DNA of 29,377 nt, from positions 1 through 29,377 of IMG/VR virus record IMGVR_UViG_3300030406_006012; one strand, 5' to 3'. The stretch is from a virus. This document shows, one piece after another, positions 22,535 to 29,377 of this stretch; position 1 is the first letter of the stretch; each line of letters opens with the position of its first letter. The notes beneath the pieces were generated by a model. The model did no database searches and had not been told where the DNA came from. It saw nothing but the letters and a program-made list of their open reading frames with translations. A program made the translations under genes and the position numbers.

Positions 22535-22643
22535 CCGCTTGTCCTGCAATCGTTTAGGAAAATGACTCTTCCCCAACTCTTACCTGCCTATTTATTTACT
22601 GTTCCTAAATATAATATTTTCATTGACTTACACTTTTTTTCCT

Positions 22644-22690
22644 AAAAAGCGTATTTTTTACTTTACAAATTAGCGACCATAACTTATCTT
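22644..22690 (+). promoter_or_regulatory. Right-arm promoter copy P1
   Basis: TTTACA (22662-22667), 17 bp, TATCTT (22685-22690), preceded by AAAAAGCGTATTTTTTAC. The spacer ends in CCATAACT and TTCTATTGTTGTTA follows. The 5' end of the first right-arm gene would be about 40 nt before its ATG. This is the first of five near-copies (23303, 23861, 25487, 29017). Confidence 0.8.
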
Positions 22691-22736
22691 TCTATTGTTG
22701 TTAAGAAACCACCACACTTTCAAACGGAGAATCAAA

Positions 22737-23252
22737 ATGAAAAATCAACCTCTCAATCAAATCGGCCTTACTCAAGCGGATATAGCTGAGGCAAACGATA
22801 AGCGGATGGCCGAATCAATCCACGCTGTTGAAAAAGCAAAGGAAGAAAAATATCAACCGTGGAAACGCCTTCCTTCTCGCAGAGACTTCGTTACCAATGT
22901 TGCATATACGTTTGAGAAGGTCGTTGAAAGAGGGTTGGGGGCATTTATGAGGATCGATGGTTTGCAGGTCACGATGCGCGAAGGGGTGATAGAACGTGGC
23001 ACGTTTTTAGACAATTTCAGTGGATACGTACTTAAGGAAGGTTCACGGATAATATTGCTAAACGTCTCTCTGGACGGCCGAACTGAAATGTATGTCCTAA
23101 TAGGTAAGGATGAAAGTTTCACCGCTTACAGGCATGATCCAGCCAACAATTTGCTGAATGAGGTTCGAACCGTACGTGACTCAAAATGGCAAGCCATAAA
23201 GGTTGCGACTCGTGACGCTGTAAAGCGATACTACATGTTCGATCAAATTTAA
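22737..23252 (+). CDS. Unknown early protein, 171 aa
   Basis: First gene of the right arm, behind promoter P1 and a CACCACAC-CGGAG leader. ATG at 22737, 7 nt after GGAG; a TTG further up lies in the leader and is unlikely. Product MKNQPLNQIGLTQADIAEAND... has a helical, charged first 50 residues, then a mixed alpha/beta domain (VLKEGSRIILLNVSLDGR, about 112-130). No membrane segment or known motif. It is followed by a terminator, so it is a single-gene unit. The place as first early gene suggests host takeover or regulation, but this is a guess. Confidence 0.7.
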   Translation: MKNQPLNQIGLTQADIAEANDKRMAESIHAVEKAKEEKYQPWKRLPSRRDFVTNVAYTFEKVVERGLGAFMRIDGLQVTMREGVIERGTFLDNFSGYVLKEGSRIILLNVSLDGRTEMYVLIGKDESFTAYRHDPANNLLNEVRTVRDSKWQAIKVATRDAVKRYYMFDQI

Positions 23253-23259
23253 ACTGGGA

Positions 23260-23291
23260 GGGGAGGGGCAATAAGCCTCTCCCCTTTTTTT
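23260..23291 (+). terminator. Intrinsic terminator after the first early gene
   Basis: GGGGAGGGGC (23260-23269), loop AATAA, GCCTCTCCCC (23275-23284), with one G-U pair, followed by seven T. It sits 7 nt past the stop and separates the first gene from promoter P2. Confidence 0.88.
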
Positions 23292-23302
23292 ACGTTTTTT
23301 AT

Positions 23303-23351
23303 AAAAAAAGCGTATTTTTTACTTTACTTTTTATCTGCCATAGCTTATCTT
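23303..23351 (+). promoter_or_regulatory. Right-arm promoter copy P2
   Basis: TTTACT (23323-23328), 17 bp, TATCTT (23346-23351), behind AAAAAAAGCGTATTTTTTAC. The segment after the -10, TTCTATTGTTGTTAGGAAACCACCACACTT, is almost the same as after P1, showing a duplicated promoter-leader cassette. Confidence 0.8.
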
Positions 23352-23370
23352 TCTATTGTTGTTAGGAAAC

Positions 23371-23387
23371 CACCACACTTCACGGAG
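23371..23387 (+). repeat. Repeated leader CACCACAC...CGGAG (family of at least eight copies)
   Basis: CACCACAC followed after 3-7 nt by CGGAG(G) and then, 5-9 nt on, a start codon. Clear copies begin at 22710, 23371, 23579, 23928, 25659, 26276 and 27114, with a shorter CCACAC copy at 29087 and a looser CACCATAATGAACGGAG at 24911. CGGAGG alone precedes the TTG at 25123. Copies occur with and without an upstream promoter, so the conserved half upstream of the ribosome site must act in RNA. A translation enhancer or RNA-binding protein site is likely. Confidence 0.75.
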
Positions 23388-23394
23388 ACCGAAA

Positions 23395-23577
23395 ATGAGA
23401 ATCGATCAGAATCAAATCCCCTTCACCTACACCAAAGAAGTCGCTTTTAACGCTGTAAAGATTTGCAACGAAGCGGAGGAAGGCACCTACGTGGCTGAGC
23501 CAATCGACGATTCACCAAATGCTCGCTATATCGTCAAGTGCTATGATTTAGACGGCAATTACCTCGGCAATATATAA
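23395..23577 (+). CDS. Small early protein, 60 aa
   Basis: MRIDQNQIPFTYTKEVAFNAV..., with ATG at 23395, 7 nt after CGGAG. The product is acidic, with a helix at residues 10-30 and a beta hairpin at the end (YIVKCYDLDGNYLGN). Unrecognised. First of two short genes behind P2; it ends 1 nt ahead of the next leader. Confidence 0.65.
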   Translation: MRIDQNQIPFTYTKEVAFNAVKICNEAEEGTYVAEPIDDSPNARYIVKCYDLDGNYLGNI

Positions 23578-23603
23578 ACACCACACCTTACGGAGGAATT
23601 AAA

Positions 23604-23840
23604 ATGATGAAGCGCGAATCAAGCATGACAACCATTAAAGCCGACCTCTACAAAACAGTTGTTGTTCCGGCATGGAACAATCGTTACGCATCTATTGAGT
23701 CTTGGCGCCAAAACGAATTCGGTGGTTTTTATTTCACCGTCTCTACTAATTATGATATCGTGGAAGGCGTTGTCGTTAATTTGAAAGAAGATCTGGTTGG
23801 TGAGTTTGCTGAAGAAGAACTGATTAGATTTTGTCTTTAA
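23604..23840 (+). CDS. Small early protein, 78 aa
   Basis: MMKRESSMTTIKADLYK..., starting at 23604 or the adjacent ATG at 23607, with CGGAGG 7-10 nt upstream. It shows a short basic start and a beta-rich body rich in aromatic residues (WNNRYASIESWRQNEFGGFYF), with an acidic helical end (LKEDLVGEFAEEEL). Unrecognised; likely a small regulatory protein of the early region. It is followed by an AT-rich stretch and P3. Confidence 0.65.
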   Translation: MMKRESSMTTIKADLYKTVVVPAWNNRYASIESWRQNEFGGFYFTVSTNYDIVEGVVVNLKEDLVGEFAEEELIRFCL

Positions 23841-23860
23841 ACTTTAATTAAAAAAAGTGA

Positions 23861-23909
23861 AAAAAAAGAGTATTTTTCACTTTACAAATTAGTCGCCATA
23901 GCTTATCTT
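23861..23909 (+). promoter_or_regulatory. Right-arm promoter copy P3
   Basis: TTTACA (23881-23886), 17 bp, TATCTT (23904-23909). The spacer holds AGTCGCCATAGCT, close to the other copies; a run of A (23861 on) and GAGTATTTTTCAC precede it. Confidence 0.8.
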
Positions 23910-23952
23910 TCTATTATCATCATTTAACACCACACTTCACGGAGGCTTTAAA

Positions 23953-24867
23953 ATGACTACTCAGAAAAAAATCAGCTCAGACCACTACAAGAGAACGAGG
24001 TGGCAACAGTTTGATGATTTCAGTGATTTCGTTGACCGCTTACTCGACAACGATGGCATCACCGACAATATGCACCACATTGAAGAAGAGTGGGGTCGCA
24101 AGTTCGAAATCACTGCCATAGACGTCGATGAAAAACAATACAAAAGTATTGAATCGAATAGAAACATAGATATGTTCCCTCCGCACAATGTTTGCCGCCA
24201 AATTTTCGTAGCGTTCCAAATCCCGCATGACACATATAATGATACGCTGTTAACCAAAGAGGATCGGGCACGTTTTGACGCTTTTCATTTTTCAGTGCCA
24301 GTTGACGTTTTTTTTGAGCAAGAAGGAGAGTATTGCAAGATTTCATGGGGGTTCCAAAACATTAAAAACGTTGTTGGCGATTACATGGCAGTTGATTTAT
24401 CTAAAACTTTTACGATGGACTTCGGTGACATTCGGCCATCCAACCATCGTTTTAAAATGGATCGCTCTATGCGTTCATTGGCCAATGCGCTATACAAAAG
24501 CATTAAACGTGCTTGCTACGTTGCTACGCATTTATGCTCTGAATATGCAATGCGTTGCGTCACCATAGCTAAGAAAAACAACCGTAATGATTTCATAAAG
24601 GAAACAATTAAAAAGGCACACGAAGAGTGTGCCTTTTTCGAAGATTTACCTTCAAACGAAAACGGCCTCAGAATTCATCCTTACAACAGTGGCTTTAAGT
24701 ATCAAGCGTTCAATAATATAGTAGTTAAGGTTACAGACCATCATAATCAATGGTCAGAAGAGCGGACAGAGGTTGAACTTCGGCTTGATTGCAAAGCAGA
24801 AGACCTGCAATCAGTGCTGAGTATCTTTAAAAGGTTGGCTCGCTATAACTATTACAAAAACCAGTAA
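23953..24867 (+). CDS. Unknown early protein, 304 aa
   Basis: MTTQKKISSDHYKRTRWQQFDDF..., with ATG at 23953, 7 nt after CGGAGG. The largest of the unknown early proteins: soluble, charged, with scattered Cys/His (CYVATHLCSEYAMRC, about residues 196-210) but no fixed zinc pattern. Middle: DMFPPHNVCRQIFVAFQIP. No membrane segment or motif recognised. It carries a terminator-like hairpin inside its coding sequence (24610-24638). Promoter P3 lies directly upstream. Confidence 0.7.
   Translation: MTTQKKISSDHYKRTRWQQFDDFSDFVDRLLDNDGITDNMHHIEEEWGRKFEITAIDVDEKQYKSIESNRNIDMFPPHNVCRQIFVAFQIPHDTYNDTLLTKEDRARFDAFHFSVPVDVFFEQEGEYCKISWGFQNIKNVVGDYMAVDLSKTFTMDFGDIRPSNHRFKMDRSMRSLANALYKSIKRACYVATHLCSEYAMRCVTIAKKNNRNDFIKETIKKAHEECAFFEDLPSNENGLRIHPYNSGFKYQAFNNIVVKVTDHHNQWSEERTEVELRLDCKAEDLQSVLSIFKRLARYNYYKNQ
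24610..24638. other. Terminator-like hairpin inside a coding sequence
   Basis: AAAAAGGCACAC (24610-24621), 5-nt loop, GTGTGCCTTTTT (24627-24638), a perfect 12-bp stem flanked by A and T runs, which makes it terminator-like on both strands. It encodes KKAHEECAFF. It may make transcripts stop early and reduce the C-terminal third of the protein and downstream genes. Confidence 0.6.
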
Positions 24868-24876
24868 CGTCCCCAT

Positions 24877-24909
24877 ACGTGCGTGTGCTATCCTCTTGCA
24901 CACGCACGT
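24877..24909. other. Strong hairpin upstream of the 61-aa gene
   Basis: ACGTGCGTGTGC (24877-24888) pairs perfectly with 24898-24909 around a 9-nt loop. No T-run follows on either strand, so it is not a simple terminator. It begins 10 nt after the 304-aa gene and lies just ahead of a leader-type ribosome site; it may protect or regulate RNA. Confidence 0.5.
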
Positions 24910-24935
24910 TCACCATAATGAACGGAGAATAAATA

Positions 24936-25121
24936 ATGAGTGGCGTATACGACAAAGAAATTTGGGGCGATGAGTTTTTAGTCGTGCCGACAATACTAAG
25001 AAAGAAAGCGCACCGTGCATATTTAAACAGGGATTTTGAGCTATTAAATAGTATCAAAGCTGAAGTGTATAAACTGTTTTTTGAACTTAAGTATAATCAC
25101 ATTAAAACGGAGGCAAATTAA
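24936..25121 (+). CDS. Small early protein, 61 aa
   Basis: MSGVYDKEIWGDEFLVVP..., ATG at 24936 with GGAG 7-8 nt upstream. It is largely helical and basic (LRKKAHRAYLNRDFELLNSIKAE) and ends FFELKYNHIKTEAN. Unrecognised; no signal or membrane segment. It ends 1 nt before the TTG start of the next gene, so the two are coupled. Confidence 0.65.
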   Translation: MSGVYDKEIWGDEFLVVPTILRKKAHRAYLNRDFELLNSIKAEVYKLFFELKYNHIKTEAN

Positions 25122-25122
25122 A

Positions 25123-25464
25123 TTGAACCGCGCAGAGAAGGCACAAGCCAAACACCTTATTGAATCAGCTATACGAGACAGAAAATTAGATGCCGTATTG
25201 AACGAAATGGCAACAATAGTTGGAATAGAAAAAACAGATTTAGAAACTACCCTGCGTGGTTGTTTGGGTGAGAAATACAGCACAGAACAGACCGCTAAAA
25301 TAATCGGCATGTCTACACCGTGGGTTACTTATAAAGCAAGACAATTAGAAATCGGTGAGCAACTTCCGCACTACGGTCGGCAGAAGAAATATTTATTTGA
25401 CTATGCTGACATCAATGTATTGGCTGAAGATGGGCAAAAGCAACGTGAGATAAAATATACGTAA
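25123..25464 (+). CDS. Helix-turn-helix DNA-binding protein
   Basis: 113 aa from the TTG at 25123, behind CGGAGG with 9 nt spacing and coupled to the upstream stop. A longer frame upstream would overlap that gene. The C-terminal half carries a HTH with wing, YSTEQTAKIIGMSTPWVTYKA (about residues 62-82) followed by YLFDYADINVLAE, which resembles excisionase/MerR-like sequences. The N-terminal half is a charged helical part. It probably is an early transcription regulator, possibly of the repeated promoters. That last step is inference. Confidence 0.65.
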   Translation: MNRAEKAQAKHLIESAIRDRKLDAVLNEMATIVGIEKTDLETTLRGCLGEKYSTEQTAKIIGMSTPWVTYKARQLEIGEQLPHYGRQKKYLFDYADINVLAEDGQKQREIKYT

Positions 25465-25486
25465 TTAGACTTTTTTTACGTTTTTT

Positions 25487-25537
25487 TAAAAAAAAGAGCA
25501 TTTTTCTCTTTACAAATTATCTACCATAGCTTATATT
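25487..25537 (+). promoter_or_regulatory. Right-arm promoter copy P4
   Basis: TTTACA (25509-25514), 17 bp, TATATT (25532-25537), the only copy with a different -10. GAGCATTTTTCTC precedes it and TTCTATTAACGTTGAA follows. It drives the small membrane peptide and the Rad52-like gene. Confidence 0.8.
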
Positions 25538-25571
25538 TCTATTAACGTTGAAACAAAGGTTGAGATTTATC

Positions 25572-25658
25572 GTGGAAGAATTTATTGAGAAATACAGCGG
25601 ACACGTATTGGTGATTTTGATCGTATCATTATTGCTATTATTTGTTCGTTCCATCTAA
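25572..25658 (+). CDS. 28-aa membrane peptide
   Basis: GTG start at 25572, stop TAA at 25656-25658: MEEFIEKYSGHVLVILIVSLLLLFVRSI. A charged N-terminus and one hydrophobic helix (residues 11-26) with an Arg at the C-terminal side, as in small membrane proteins. It sits 35 nt after the -10 of P4, so it would be the first frame of that mRNA. The ribosome site is weak (AAGG at 14 nt, GAG nearer). The frame is too short for certainty. Confidence 0.4.
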   Translation: MEEFIEKYSGHVLVILIVSLLLLFVRSI

Positions 25659-25682
25659 CACCACACCGAACGGAGAACCGTT

Positions 25683-26273
25683 ATGAATAATGAAACCATC
25701 AACAGTCGGCTTAATGCTGATCTAAATAGTCGCCACGTAAGCCAACGGCAACAAGGCACGATGAACCTATCGTATCTTGAGGCTTGGTTTGTCATTGATC
25801 AGATGAATCAGATTTTCGGCTTCACCGCATGGGACAGAGAAACGCAAACGATGTTGGAATTTGCTGAAGAGCGTGACGGTAAGTTTTACGTTACCTACAC
25901 AGCAAAGTGCATTATAACAGTGAGCACAAGCTCCGCACAACTGACGAGGACCGGTCATGGCGTTGGTCACGGTAATGGCATACGCGACAAGGGATTAGCT
26001 CTTGAGTCAGCAATGAAGGAAGCAGAAAGCGATGCTATGAAACGTGCCTGTATGACGCTGGGCAACCAGTTCGGTCTTGCGTTATACGATAAAGCGCAAG
26101 CATGTGTCGTTGACGAAGGACACCAAAATAATTTTATAGAATACGTTGAGCAAGCAAATATCGACACCGAAACCTTGATATCACTGCTCGGAAGTTATGG
26201 TGCTGAGCGATTAGAAGATGTTCCGCAGAGGCACTATAAGTCATTCACTGATGCAATTAAGCGCATACAATAA
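25683..26273 (+). CDS. Rad52-family single-strand annealing protein
   Basis: A 196-aa protein that matches the Rad52 annealing fold: LSYLEAWFVIDQMNQIFGFTAW (29-50), the beta sheet YVTYTAKCIITV (69-80), RTGHGVGHGNG (89-99) and KEAESDAMKRACMTLGNQFGLALYD (112-136). These are diagnostic for Rad52/22-type proteins. It forms rings on single-stranded DNA and drives annealing in phage recombination and replication. The C-terminal part is short and lacks an eukaryotic extension. ATG at 25683, 6 nt after CGGAG. It belongs to the P4 unit with the next genes. No partner exonuclease or single-strand binding protein is in the window. Confidence 0.9.
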   Translation: MNNETINSRLNADLNSRHVSQRQQGTMNLSYLEAWFVIDQMNQIFGFTAWDRETQTMLEFAEERDGKFYVTYTAKCIITVSTSSAQLTRTGHGVGHGNGIRDKGLALESAMKEAESDAMKRACMTLGNQFGLALYDKAQACVVDEGHQNNFIEYVEQANIDTETLISLLGSYGAERLEDVPQRHYKSFTDAIKRIQ

Positions 26274-26298
26274 AACACCACACACACGGAGAAAAATA

Positions 26299-27075
26299 AT
26301 GGAATTTCTTACAAGCGCAGGTCAAAGAGGTTGCGGCACACGCAAGGAAGGGGGATTATACGCTTGCACTGGCCAATCAAGCACTGGTTTACCCATAGAA
26401 GCGTTTATAATTGATCCTGCTATTGAATGGACTAATGGTCCGTTTAGAGGCGTACAGTGGCTTGAGAGGCCCGACGGCATTTACGATATACTGCTTTGGG
26501 TGGGAGAGGAGCATTATCCGCATTTATCCGATTTCGTTGAAGAGGGTCGCGTAATGGGTTTTTCAAAACGCATACCGATAAACGGAAGCGACAATAATTA
26601 TGAACGCCTAACGTTCGGTAGCAGTAGAATGCTATTGATTCACCCGAACGCAATTATAAACACACCGTATACATTAAATCCGCAAAACAATTTATCATCG
26701 GAACTGATTGGCGAAAATGTTATGCCGCGCATTGAGCGGCCAAGTCAAACGAACTGCGGTTGCGCTTTGAAATACGATCCACCGTTTTCGACCCATCCGT
26801 GTACGTTTGCAACATGGGATTTGTCCGGACACAGGCCAGATGCTAAAACATTGCCGAACACTGACCTCGCTATGATTAAAACACCATCCGTAATATACAC
26901 GGTGAAAAAAAGTCTCAGCGGCGATAATAGCTACACCAAACACGCATCGGCAGGGATTTTTCTTGCTCTACCGCTTACGCACTGTGAATATGTTAGTAAG
27001 CAACATACGTTGCCCGAAACTGTTGCCAATAAACTTGGTGCAAACGCACAAGGGACGGCAGTAGTTTCTGAGTAG
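26299..27075 (+). CDS. Unknown 258-aa protein with a Cys-rich start
   Basis: MEFLTSAGQRGCGTRKEGGLYA..., ATG at 26299 behind CACCACAC-CGGAG. I recall a conserved phage and bacterial family with 'CGTRKEGG.Y' near the N-terminus and a 'W.G..HYP...DFVEE.R.mGFSkRIP' segment, here LLWVGEEHYPHLSDFVEEGR and SKRIPI; no function is known for it. Cys at residues 12 and 23 and CGCALKYDP later might form a metal site or a nucleic-acid-binding site. No membrane helices. Neighbours are recombination and replication genes. Confidence 0.7.
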   Translation: MEFLTSAGQRGCGTRKEGGLYACTGQSSTGLPIEAFIIDPAIEWTNGPFRGVQWLERPDGIYDILLWVGEEHYPHLSDFVEEGRVMGFSKRIPINGSDNNYERLTFGSSRMLLIHPNAIINTPYTLNPQNNLSSELIGENVMPRIERPSQTNCGCALKYDPPFSTHPCTFATWDLSGHRPDAKTLPNTDLAMIKTPSVIYTVKKSLSGDNSYTKHASAGIFLALPLTHCEYVSKQHTLPETVANKLGANAQGTAVVSE

Positions 27076-27138
27076 TCAGATAGAAAAAAACGTTTATATT
27101 TGTTCAAATCAACCACCACACCACACGGAGATTTAAAA

Positions 27139-27849
27139 ATGCAACAATTAGAATCGTTACATACGCTTGATATCAAGGGTGAAATTTGTGATGCTTCGCA
27201 TATAATCAAAAGCATTTCAATGATCGGGCAACGCATCCCTATCATCGTTACGCCCACTGAAGGCGAATATAAATATAAGGTGCTTGACGGAAACAGGCGT
27301 TTATGCGCATTGAAACAACTGTCTGAAGAAAAGGTTGACGCCTACGTAGTGACTAATACAGCGGAATACAATGCTATCACTACGCTTGTTGCTAACATAA
27401 GTAGAACGAGAAACGTGGCCGCTGAAAGCGATGCACTCGTCACATTGCAAGCGGAAGGTTTGACAGCGAAGGAAATATCTGAGCAAACAGGACTACCACT
27501 GCGCAACATCACAGAGCTTGTTGATTTACGGGGGCAATTAATAGCAAAAGCATTTACGATGTTGCGTGAGGGCAACATGTCGTTAAGCACGGCTAAACGT
27601 TTACAGCGTTTAGAACCAAATGCACAGGAAGAACTCATATTAAATACGGAAGGACGTTTGCGGGGCAAAGATGTTGAGAGCGCACTACGAGCAGAAAATA
27701 ATAAATTGCTACAAGAAATTGCTCAGATCCCTGCTGTGACAACAGGCCATAGTATAATGGCATCCCAACTTGATCAGTTAGCTCAAAAATTGACGGGTGA
27801 AAAGCGTAAGGTAATAATTAATGCGGCCGAAATTATTAGGGGTCTATGA
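27139..27849 (+). CDS. ParB/KorB-like DNA-binding protein
   Basis: A 236-aa protein: ParB N-terminal fold with VLDGNRRLCALKQL (48-61; DGNRRL core, Asp50), then a HTH LTAKEISEQTGLPLRNITELV (about 108-128), the KorB/ParB order, and a helical tail. ATG at 27139, 8 nt after CGGAG. Its TGA overlaps the next ATG (ATGA at 27846). ParB-like phage proteins bind centromere-like DNA, but no ParA gene is visible, so replication or transcription control is equally possible. It differs from the shorter ParB-fold gene in the left arm by having the HTH. Confidence 0.82.
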   Translation: MQQLESLHTLDIKGEICDASHIIKSISMIGQRIPIIVTPTEGEYKYKVLDGNRRLCALKQLSEEKVDAYVVTNTAEYNAITTLVANISRTRNVAAESDALVTLQAEGLTAKEISEQTGLPLRNITELVDLRGQLIAKAFTMLREGNMSLSTAKRLQRLEPNAQEELILNTEGRLRGKDVESALRAENNKLLQEIAQIPAVTTGHSIMASQLDQLAQKLTGEKRKVIINAAEIIRGL

Positions 27850-28640
27850 TGACCGGATTTATCCTATTATACCGTGATTACCTTAATCATCCTATCTGGA
27901 GAACTGATGAATGGACACGTCGCACTTGGGAGTTTTTACTCCTAAGTGCGGCACACAAAGGCAACGCACAACAACGGGGGACGCTTATCGGCACGTGCGA
28001 GTTAACATACAGCCAGATAGTTGAGGGGACGTATTACATAGAAAATGGTTCAACGCTTAAAAAAATATCACGCAATAAACTGAACAAAGTAATCAAATAC
28101 TTACAAGAAAACGACATGATTACTTATAAAGCACAGCAGGGAAAATCAATAACGATTACAATTACGAACTGGCATAAATGGCAACACCCGAAAGAGCACG
28201 CTTTCGTTAAAAGCGATGTTGACTTTAATAATATAAAGGAATCTAAACCCGATCCGAATTTTAGCAGTGGCGCGTTGATGGAATTATGGGGTCGTGATAA
28301 TTTGCCGAACTCACCGCACTACAGCGCACATGAACTTGTGTTGCATCAACTACACGTACAACCACCGCACTATAGTTTTGATGATCTGTCTCACATTATA
28401 ACCAATGTAAAAAAATATAAAAACGACGGATTGGAATTCGTTTGGAACAGCGGACCGATACGGTTAAATAAAACTATACACAAAACAGGACAATTGGTTG
28501 CAGAGTATTGTCTTAATTTTAAAGGGTTTGCTAAGAATGGAAAAGCTATCAGAAATCGCACAGAACGCATTGCCCACGGAAATGAATTACTTGACGAACT
28601 CCTCGCACCACAAGCAAACGCTCAAAGACGTATTGGGTGA
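27846..28640 (+). CDS. Replication initiation protein, O-like
   Basis: A 264-aa protein with the winged-helix start common in phage replication proteins: MTGFILLYRDYLNHPIWRTD, then LTYSQIVEGTYYIE and NKLNKVIKYLQENDMITYKA (the winged helix, about 78-115), with ITNWHKWQH closing it. C-terminal half unrecognised, moderately helical, ending in a basic segment (AQRRIG). Order ParB-like, O-like, and a small P-like protein fits an initiator-loader pair as in lambda. Start overlaps the previous stop by 4 nt. Confidence 0.75.
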   Translation: MMTGFILLYRDYLNHPIWRTDEWTRRTWEFLLLSAAHKGNAQQRGTLIGTCELTYSQIVEGTYYIENGSTLKKISRNKLNKVIKYLQENDMITYKAQQGKSITITITNWHKWQHPKEHAFVKSDVDFNNIKESKPDPNFSSGALMELWGRDNLPNSPHYSAHELVLHQLHVQPPHYSFDDLSHIITNVKKYKNDGLEFVWNSGPIRLNKTIHKTGQLVAEYCLNFKGFAKNGKAIRNRTERIAHGNELLDELLAPQANAQRRIG

Positions 28641-29019
28641 TAAGACAGAAGCGTTTCGCGCAATTATGAAGCGGTTGAGCGCAGAGTATAACTGGGAATT
28701 TACCAAAGAGGACGTGCATACTTGGGCTGAGTTTGCTTCGGTCTGTAGTGAAACAGAATTTTCAACTGCTGTTGGCATGCATTTTACAGATACGAGCATG
28801 ACAAGCGCAGGGACACCGACCTGTACGTTTCGGCCGAAGGTCGGGCAAATAGCTATGCACATTGAAACAATACGGGAAAACAATAAACGCAAACAGAACC
28901 GCAAAGATCAAGCTGAAAAGAATAAACAATGGAAAGAGGAAAAGGCCGAAATACCGTTTGTTTCTGAGCAAATGCGTATAATTCGTGAAAAAAATCCGTT
29001 TTTATTTAAAAAACCGTAA
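28537..29019 (+). CDS. Possible helicase-loader-like protein
   Basis: About 160 aa with start at ATG 28537 (MEKLSEIAQNALP...); the frame could start further up (28498) or at the ATG at 28582. It overlaps the O-like gene by about 100 nt in another frame. Residues about 60-105 (WAEFASVCSETEFSTAVGMHF and FRPKVGQIAMHIETI) resemble helicase-loader domains where a helical pair precedes a 'P+.G.I...I' helix. The C-terminus is very charged (KRKQNRKDQAEKNKQ). Loader role is a suggestion from position and this pattern only. Confidence 0.55.
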   Translation: MEKLSEIAQNALPTEMNYLTNSSHHKQTLKDVLGDKTEAFRAIMKRLSAEYNWEFTKEDVHTWAEFASVCSETEFSTAVGMHFTDTSMTSAGTPTCTFRPKVGQIAMHIETIRENNKRKQNRKDQAEKNKQWKEEKAEIPFVSEQMRIIREKNPFLFKKP

Positions 29020-29066
29020 AAAAAGCGTATTTTGTCCTTTACAAATTAGCTATGATAGCTTATCTT
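29017..29066 (+). promoter_or_regulatory. Right-arm promoter copy P5
   Basis: TTTACA (29038-29043), 17 bp, TATCTT (29061-29066). AAAAAAAGCGTATTTTGTCC precedes it and TTCTATTAACGTTAA follows. It overlaps the stop of the preceding gene and starts a new transcription unit. Confidence 0.8.
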
Positions 29067-29111
29067 TCTATTAACGTTAATTCAAACCACACTTCAAGCG
29101 GAGATTAAAAA

Positions 29112-29351
29112 ATGAATCTGACTAACAAATTTTTACCTAACAAACAAATATTTATTTTGGCATCGCATAGAATTAAAGCGTTAGATTATGAAGTTGAGAC
29201 AGAAAATAATCGGTTTAGAATTTTCAAAAAAGGAACTTTATTGAAATCTCATTTTGCGATGGAAGGTTGGTATAAAACTGACAATAAAGATATATCAATG
29301 CACGACGATGAAGTTCAAAAAACTGTCAAACGAATTATAGAGGACGAATAA
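29112..29351 (+). CDS. Unknown 79-aa protein
   Basis: MNLTNKFLPNKQIFILASHR..., ATG at 29112, 8-9 nt after CGGAG, first gene of the P5 unit. The product looks like a small alpha/beta protein with basic stretches (FRIFKKGTLLKSH) and an acidic end. Unrecognised. Intact within the window; stop at 29349-29351. Confidence 0.65.
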   Translation: MNLTNKFLPNKQIFILASHRIKALDYEVETENNRFRIFKKGTLLKSHFAMEGWYKTDNKDISMHDDEVQKTVKRIIEDE

Positions 29352-29377
29352 ATTTAACTTTCGGGCAGGGTCGCGTG

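Follow-up and report, generated by a model that had tools for sequence, protein, structure and literature searches.

A repeated CACCACAC-CGGAG leader at right-arm gene starts of a 33.6-kb phage record and its candidate role in translation initiation

Nine genes in the right arm of this phage begin behind the same short leader, and we consider it moderately probable, judging from its sequence and placement, that this leader is an RNA-level translation-initiation cassette that is associated with start codons and reused at early genes. The window, meaning the whole 29,377-nt stretch of DNA analysed, comprises bases 1-29377 of a 33,639-base (33.6-kb) virus record. Its left part carries the structural genes on the minus strand (tape measure, major head protein, scaffold, portal and terminase), and the right arm, on the plus strand, encodes a Rad52-like protein, a ParB-like protein, a DnaD-like helicase loader and proteins without an assigned role. 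The label "early" for the right arm is drawn from this gene content. Gene starts were set with a simple caller and inspection, by which 15 right-arm genes and 28 late genes were counted, and the material covered was the sequence of this one phage and of one relative with an orthologous operon (G001).

Distribution, conservation and openness of the leader

The full arrangement of CACCACAC, CGGAG and ATG was found at 9 of the 15 right-arm starts and at 0 of the 28 late starts (Fisher P = 9e-6; Table 1). The original prediction had placed the motif ahead of eight named starts, and this was confirmed, with exact CACCACAC at 22737, 23395, 23604, 23953, 25683, 26299 and 27139; the copy at 29112, which had been called reduced, reads AACCACAC. 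Across the whole record, CACCACAC occurs 10 times on the plus strand and 0 times on the minus strand, and the only copy away from gene starts is at 2370, so the motif is not equally frequent outside gene starts, the result that had been named as a refutation. A common 8-mer was present at 8 of the 15 right-arm genes, compared with a maximum of 5/15 and a mean of 2.1 in random 35-nt blocks of the arm (2000 draws), and random placement would put at least 8 of 9 sites at 20-28 nt upstream of a start with a probability of about 1e-17 or less. When one mismatch was allowed, the 8-mer was only weakly enriched (23 seen vs 17 expected, a count reached in 8 of 100 shuffles), indicating that the signal is carried by the exact 8-mer.

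Over the nine leaders, CACCACAC is kept in 71 of 72 columns (one copy departs from the others in the first motif column, and the remaining seven columns are invariant), and CGGAG is kept in 45 of 45. The gap between CACCACAC and GGAG is 0-8 nt, in keeping with the earlier statement that placed the motif before the ribosome site, and the distance to ATG is 7-8 nt from GGAG and 20-27 nt from the motif, with an A-rich spacer between CGGAG and ATG. The SD takes the form ACGGAG in 8 of the 9 leaders, and the SDs of late genes are mostly weaker than those of leader genes. The C preceding GGAG adds no pairing with the standard anti-SD. Pairing of the motif with rRNA outside the anti-SD was considered and rejected, as the best match was 7/8 in E. 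coli 16S, used as a proxy, and 62% of permuted motifs match that.

The proteins of the nine leader genes gave no convincing mutual blastp match, so the genes are not paralogues, and the flanks of the leader vary between copies while both blocks stay fixed. Recent copying therefore does not explain the conserved blocks. The near-invariant 8-mer amid varying flanks and spacing suggests, at the level of sequence, that the exact word is under selection, and a ribosomal contact or another reader with some sequence preference is likely.

The leader is also strongly depleted of G. In the interval -35 to -16, G accounted for 4% of bases at leader genes vs 21% in the right arm and 20% before late genes; all 15 early genes together had 8.7% (P = 5e-5 vs random arm blocks) and the six leaderless genes 15.8% (P = 0.09). 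The motif had a mean predicted unpaired probability of 0.87, compared with 0.54 when random 8-mers took its place and 0.49 at positions drawn at random from the arm, which agrees with the earlier reading of the motif as unpaired. Predicted openness of the SD itself was 0.12-0.50 and was not raised.

Table 1. Leaders, early promoter copies and an adjoining hairpin arm (window positions unless marked as record positions)
Feature	Position	Strand	Details
Leader, gene 22737	22710-22729	+	CACCACAC 22710-22717, CGGAG 22725-22729
Leader, gene 23395	23371-23387	+	CACCACAC 23371-23378, CGGAG 23383-23387
Leader, gene 23604	23579-23595	+	CACCACAC 23579-23586, CGGAG 23591-23595; without promoter, 1 nt past preceding stop
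Leader, gene 23953	23928-23944	+	CACCACAC 23928-23935, CGGAG 23940-23944
Degenerate leader (CACCATAATGAACGGAG), gene 24936	24911-24927	+	immediately 3' of hairpin 24877-24909
Leader, Rad52-like gene 25683	25659-25675	+	CACCACAC 25659-25666, CGGAG 25671-25675; adjoins stop of 28-aa ORF
Leader, gene 26299	26276-26291	+	CACCACAC 26276-26283, CGGAG 26287-26291; 2 nt past preceding stop
Leader, ParB-like gene 27139	27114-27130	+	two overlapping CACCACAC (27114, 27119) into CGGAG 27126-27130
Reduced leader, gene 29112	29085-29103	+	AACCACAC 29085-29092, CGGAG 29099-29103
Ninth leader, exact copy (CCACCACACTTCACGGAGAATAAAAAATG), start 29424	record 29399-29415	+	past window end and 10-N scaffold gap
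Hairpin left arm	29362-29377	+	closes past window end and 10-N gap, directly 5' of ninth leader
Early promoter copy 1, TTTACA-17-TATCTT	22662-22690	+	86-nt repeat 22634-22719, consensus scan; leader follows
Early promoter copy 2, TTTACT-17-TATCTT	23323-23351	+	86-nt repeat 23295-23380, 86% identity to copy 1; leader follows
Early promoter copy 3, TTTACA-17-TATCTT	23881-23909	+	86-nt repeat 23853-23938, consensus scan; leader follows
Early promoter copy 4, TTTACA-17-TATATT	25509-25537	+	86-nt repeat 25481-25566, consensus scan; no leader directly after
Early promoter copy 5, TTTACA-17-TATCTT	29038-29066	+	86-nt repeat 29010-29095, consensus scan; reduced leader follows

Promoter copies and the level of action

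An 86-nt promoter block occurs in five copies in the right arm; the consensus scan lists 4 of the 5 promoter copies, and copy 2 was assigned from its 86% identity to copy 1. An A-tract/GCGTA-like/T-tract element stands 5' of the -35 in these blocks, perhaps a UP element or operator, and inspection by eye for inverted repeats upstream of the -35 showed only a short A-tract/T-tract symmetry around GCGTA.

Five leaders (23604, 25683, 26299, 27139 and 29424) have no promoter copy directly ahead, in line with the original prediction that the motif also precedes genes without their own promoter. At 23604, 25683 and 26299 the motif begins 1, 0 and 2 nt past the preceding stop, so that the leader fills the intercistronic space, and the internal copies have one near-conserved base in common just 5' of the motif. 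A transcript from the leaderless promoter at 25509-25537 would first meet a 28-aa ORF that has another leader. This ORF (25572-25658) is hydrophobic, starts with GTG and lies between that promoter copy and the Rad52-like gene. Genes that start in overlap or near contact with the previous gene (25123, 27846, 28537 and 29737) have no leader. The promoterless leaders, the one leaderless promoter and the bare overlapping starts together indicate that the leader tracks translation starts, not promoters.

Action as an RNA or as a DNA site had both been left open earlier. The single orientation, the near-fixed distance to SD and ATG, the promoterless copies at stop codons and the leaderless promoter copy favour the former, and the leader most plausibly acts on RNA. 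Its description as a shared regulatory signature was borne out in part: the copies across the early arm do form a shared signature, and a constitutive aid to translation accounts for them no less well than regulation.

Relatives and comparable systems

The relative G001 (44 kb, a contig of L009) carries the same operon, with identities of 50% for Rad52, 50% for 26299, 39% for ParB, 45% for DnaD and 42% for 28537. The leaders there are low in G (15%, P = 1e-4), rich in C and A (AACCACCATCACATAGGAGACG, TAACACCAGTAGAGGAGACG, TTCACTACGATGGAGACC and AACCACCACAAGGAGACCCG) and have AGGAG and GGAGAC in common, not CACCACAC-CGGAG. Such leaders are kept at the G001 orthologues with spacing (Rad52, 26299 and ParB), and the DnaD start overlaps its upstream gene and has no such leader in both phages. 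These results suggest that the G-poor, C/A-rich property is conserved and that the exact word is lineage-specific. In two other relatives, G002 and G003 (early genes in L031 and L012), AACCGAGGA stands at several starts as another start-associated word.

Exact leader patterns searched in viral contigs and 84,980 prokaryote genomes gave scattered single matches and no second phage with a repeated leader, an absence that is weak evidence because near or exact records of the same phage possibly lie outside the searched sets. No DNA match to the region was found in the phage collection, and the leader alone gave chance-level matches only; a search for the promoter-plus-motif pattern returned one recurrent sequence, which was unrelated, and a text search of the literature for the 8-mer returned unrelated matches only. 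The portal protein has relatives at 64-66% identity in viral contigs and a 98% identical match in one short contig (L006, 5.6 kb), whose sequence stops before the early arm, and a portal search of prokaryote genomes found no prophage. Single-protein searches of viral contigs with the early genes found no relatives. Among named phages, proteins 23953, 26299 and 27846 had no matches and the Rad52-like protein had distant matches only; it was the sole similarity match to any phage record when the early proteins and early DNA of the window were searched. At several genes of an unrelated phage of 64% GC (L002/L003/L005), a CACACCACAC-type tract separates a -10-like element from a G-rich SD.

The start-associated sequences (SAS) of cluster K mycobacteriophages are 13-bp repeats found where non-structural genes begin; they nearly always share one orientation, are conserved beyond SD pairing and have the consensus GGGATAGGAGCCC, usually 3-7 bp away from the start. 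About half of the sites are preceded by a conserved block, ESAS, with 17-bp inverted repeats, and one block occurs without an SAS (PMC3203893). In Adephagia, ESAS contains a promoter (PMC11373665). The leader resembles SAS in being a short asymmetric repeat ahead of unrelated genes (9 starts, all on the plus strand) and in its restriction to non-structural genes (0/28 late genes), and it resembles the ESAS arrangement in that 4 of 9 leaders stand behind a repeated promoter-like block, with one block lacking a leader. However, its sequence is different and CACCACAC lies 5' of the SD, 20-27 nt from ATG. Since it departs from SAS in sequence and also in where the conserved word sits, the leader is not a cluster K SAS.

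By our comparison, the nearest match in kind is the 26-bp repeat of Citrobacter phage Mordin (KT363872), which its authors likened to SAS and of which the announcement states 8 (PMC4611695). Re-reading of Mordin (L065, 8600-15900) revealed a CCTAAACTGGAG-type leader ahead of 16 of 17 genes in one block, counting variants, and G in the -35 to -16 interval was 5% at the block genes vs 17% at structural genes, where there is no such depletion. Both phages have a G-free C/A-rich tract (CCAACAATCCTAAACT in Mordin) directly 5' of GGAG and an A-rich spacer to ATG, but the two share no sequence, and in Mordin the distance from tract to GGAG is fixed and longer identical stretches often lie upstream. 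Ribosome standby sites and unstructured translational enhancers likewise present a single-stranded tract near the SD that is thought to hold the 30S (PMC4611024, PMC3936740), a trait that the leader has by prediction (0.87 unpaired); unlike the leader, they are defined by openness and not by an exact sequence repeated over many genes (PMC4611024, PMC3936740).

The first description of SAS dates from 2011, and the papers of 2024 and 2025 that were consulted still called their role unknown. A G-free open tract 5' of the SD at non-structural genes is common to this phage and Mordin without detectable shared sequence, the leader is independent of the promoter in this phage, and in G001 openness is conserved while the exact sequence drifts. 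Together, these three phages reduce the question of the SAS role to openness vs a sequence read by a factor.

Proposed mechanism and competing explanations

In the mechanism that we favour, the G-free C/A tract CACCACAC, placed 20-27 nt before the start and followed by the CGGAG SD, the A-rich spacer and ATG, would stay single-stranded in the mRNA, as folding predicts, and would offer a landing site for the 30S just 5' of the SD, probably via protein S1 and the platform. Every spaced early cistron, first or internal, could then recruit ribosomes independently, to the benefit of the early genes, and cistrons that overlap the preceding gene would manage without a leader. The G-poor, C/A-rich starts of the spaced orthologous early genes in G001 are consistent with such a cassette, as are the matching layout in Mordin (PMC4611695) and the mostly weaker SDs of late genes. 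Several points count against it: the CA-rich enhancement documented in E. coli lies 3' of the start codon, S1 sites have been characterised as AU-rich (PMC4611024), the invariant C ahead of GGAG brings no anti-SD pairing, and the SD is not predicted to be more open than usual. Openness alone would be served by any G-free tract, yet the 8-mer is kept in 71 of 72 columns.

Since openness alone fails to explain this strict conservation, a specific reader retains some weight, and we regard it as possible though unlikely that the leader RNA is bound by a trans-acting regulator, be it an early phage protein, a host protein such as CsrA or a small RNA, which would raise or lower expression of the entire early set jointly by covering or freeing the SDs. 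For CsrA, the ACGGAG of 8 of the 9 SDs contains ANGGA, the core of CsrA sites, but the GGA lies outside hairpin loops in most predicted leader folds, and ACGGAG is found where CACCACAC is missing (genes 24936 and 25123) as well as at some late genes. Conservation of the exact 8-mer, and of the C that stands unpaired ahead of GGAG, goes further than an SD requires, and the spacing would put a bound factor beside the SD, although a gap of 0-8 nt leaves the two blocks loosely spaced for one binding site. Conservation beyond SD need has likewise been argued for SAS (PMC3203893). The complement of the motif, GTGTGGTG, is absent from the whole record, for which reason targeting by a phage-encoded small RNA was rejected; the leader had no Rfam match, and no candidate RNA-binding protein was found among the early proteins scanned. 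Somewhat more doubtful is the proposal that CACCACAC-CGGAG is recognised by a factor of phage or host origin, through which translation of all spaced early cistrons is switched together, with SAS, the Mordin repeat and the leader as independent inventions.

The leader might also be a neutral or selfish remnant, a cassette that duplication or recombination spread among the genes and that was not retained for function. The 86% identity over 86 nt of the promoter-leader copies 22634-22719 and 23295-23380 fits this, as do the near-identical stretches 5' of the Mordin leaders; however, the nine genes are not paralogues, and flanks, SD gap and spacer differ while both blocks are constant, a mark of selection and not of recent copying, which makes this explanation very improbable. 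We assign the lowest probability to a DNA site, whether an operator, an activator site or a part of the early promoter. In its favour, 4 of the 5 repeated early promoter copies (TTTACA-17-TATCTT) carry the motif downstream at a similar distance, and a ParB-like gene lies in the same arm. The motif is nevertheless not always found with a promoter (five copies have none, and the promoter at 25509-25537 has no motif directly after it); it is non-palindromic, occurs in a single orientation and at no late start, and is locked to the SD and ATG, not to the -10.

Strong hairpins without a U tract adjoin C/A-rich leaders at 24877-24909 of the window and at 29362-29397 of the record. The latter hairpin encloses the 10-N scaffold gap (record 29378-29387), where part of the intergenic sequence may be missing. 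Similar leader-adjoining hairpins were observed in G001 (L029; 8440-8475, 14444-14470 and 13247-13275), and those of both phages may be processing or stabilising structures. In Mordin, some leader copies sit 3' of short hairpin-like sequences.
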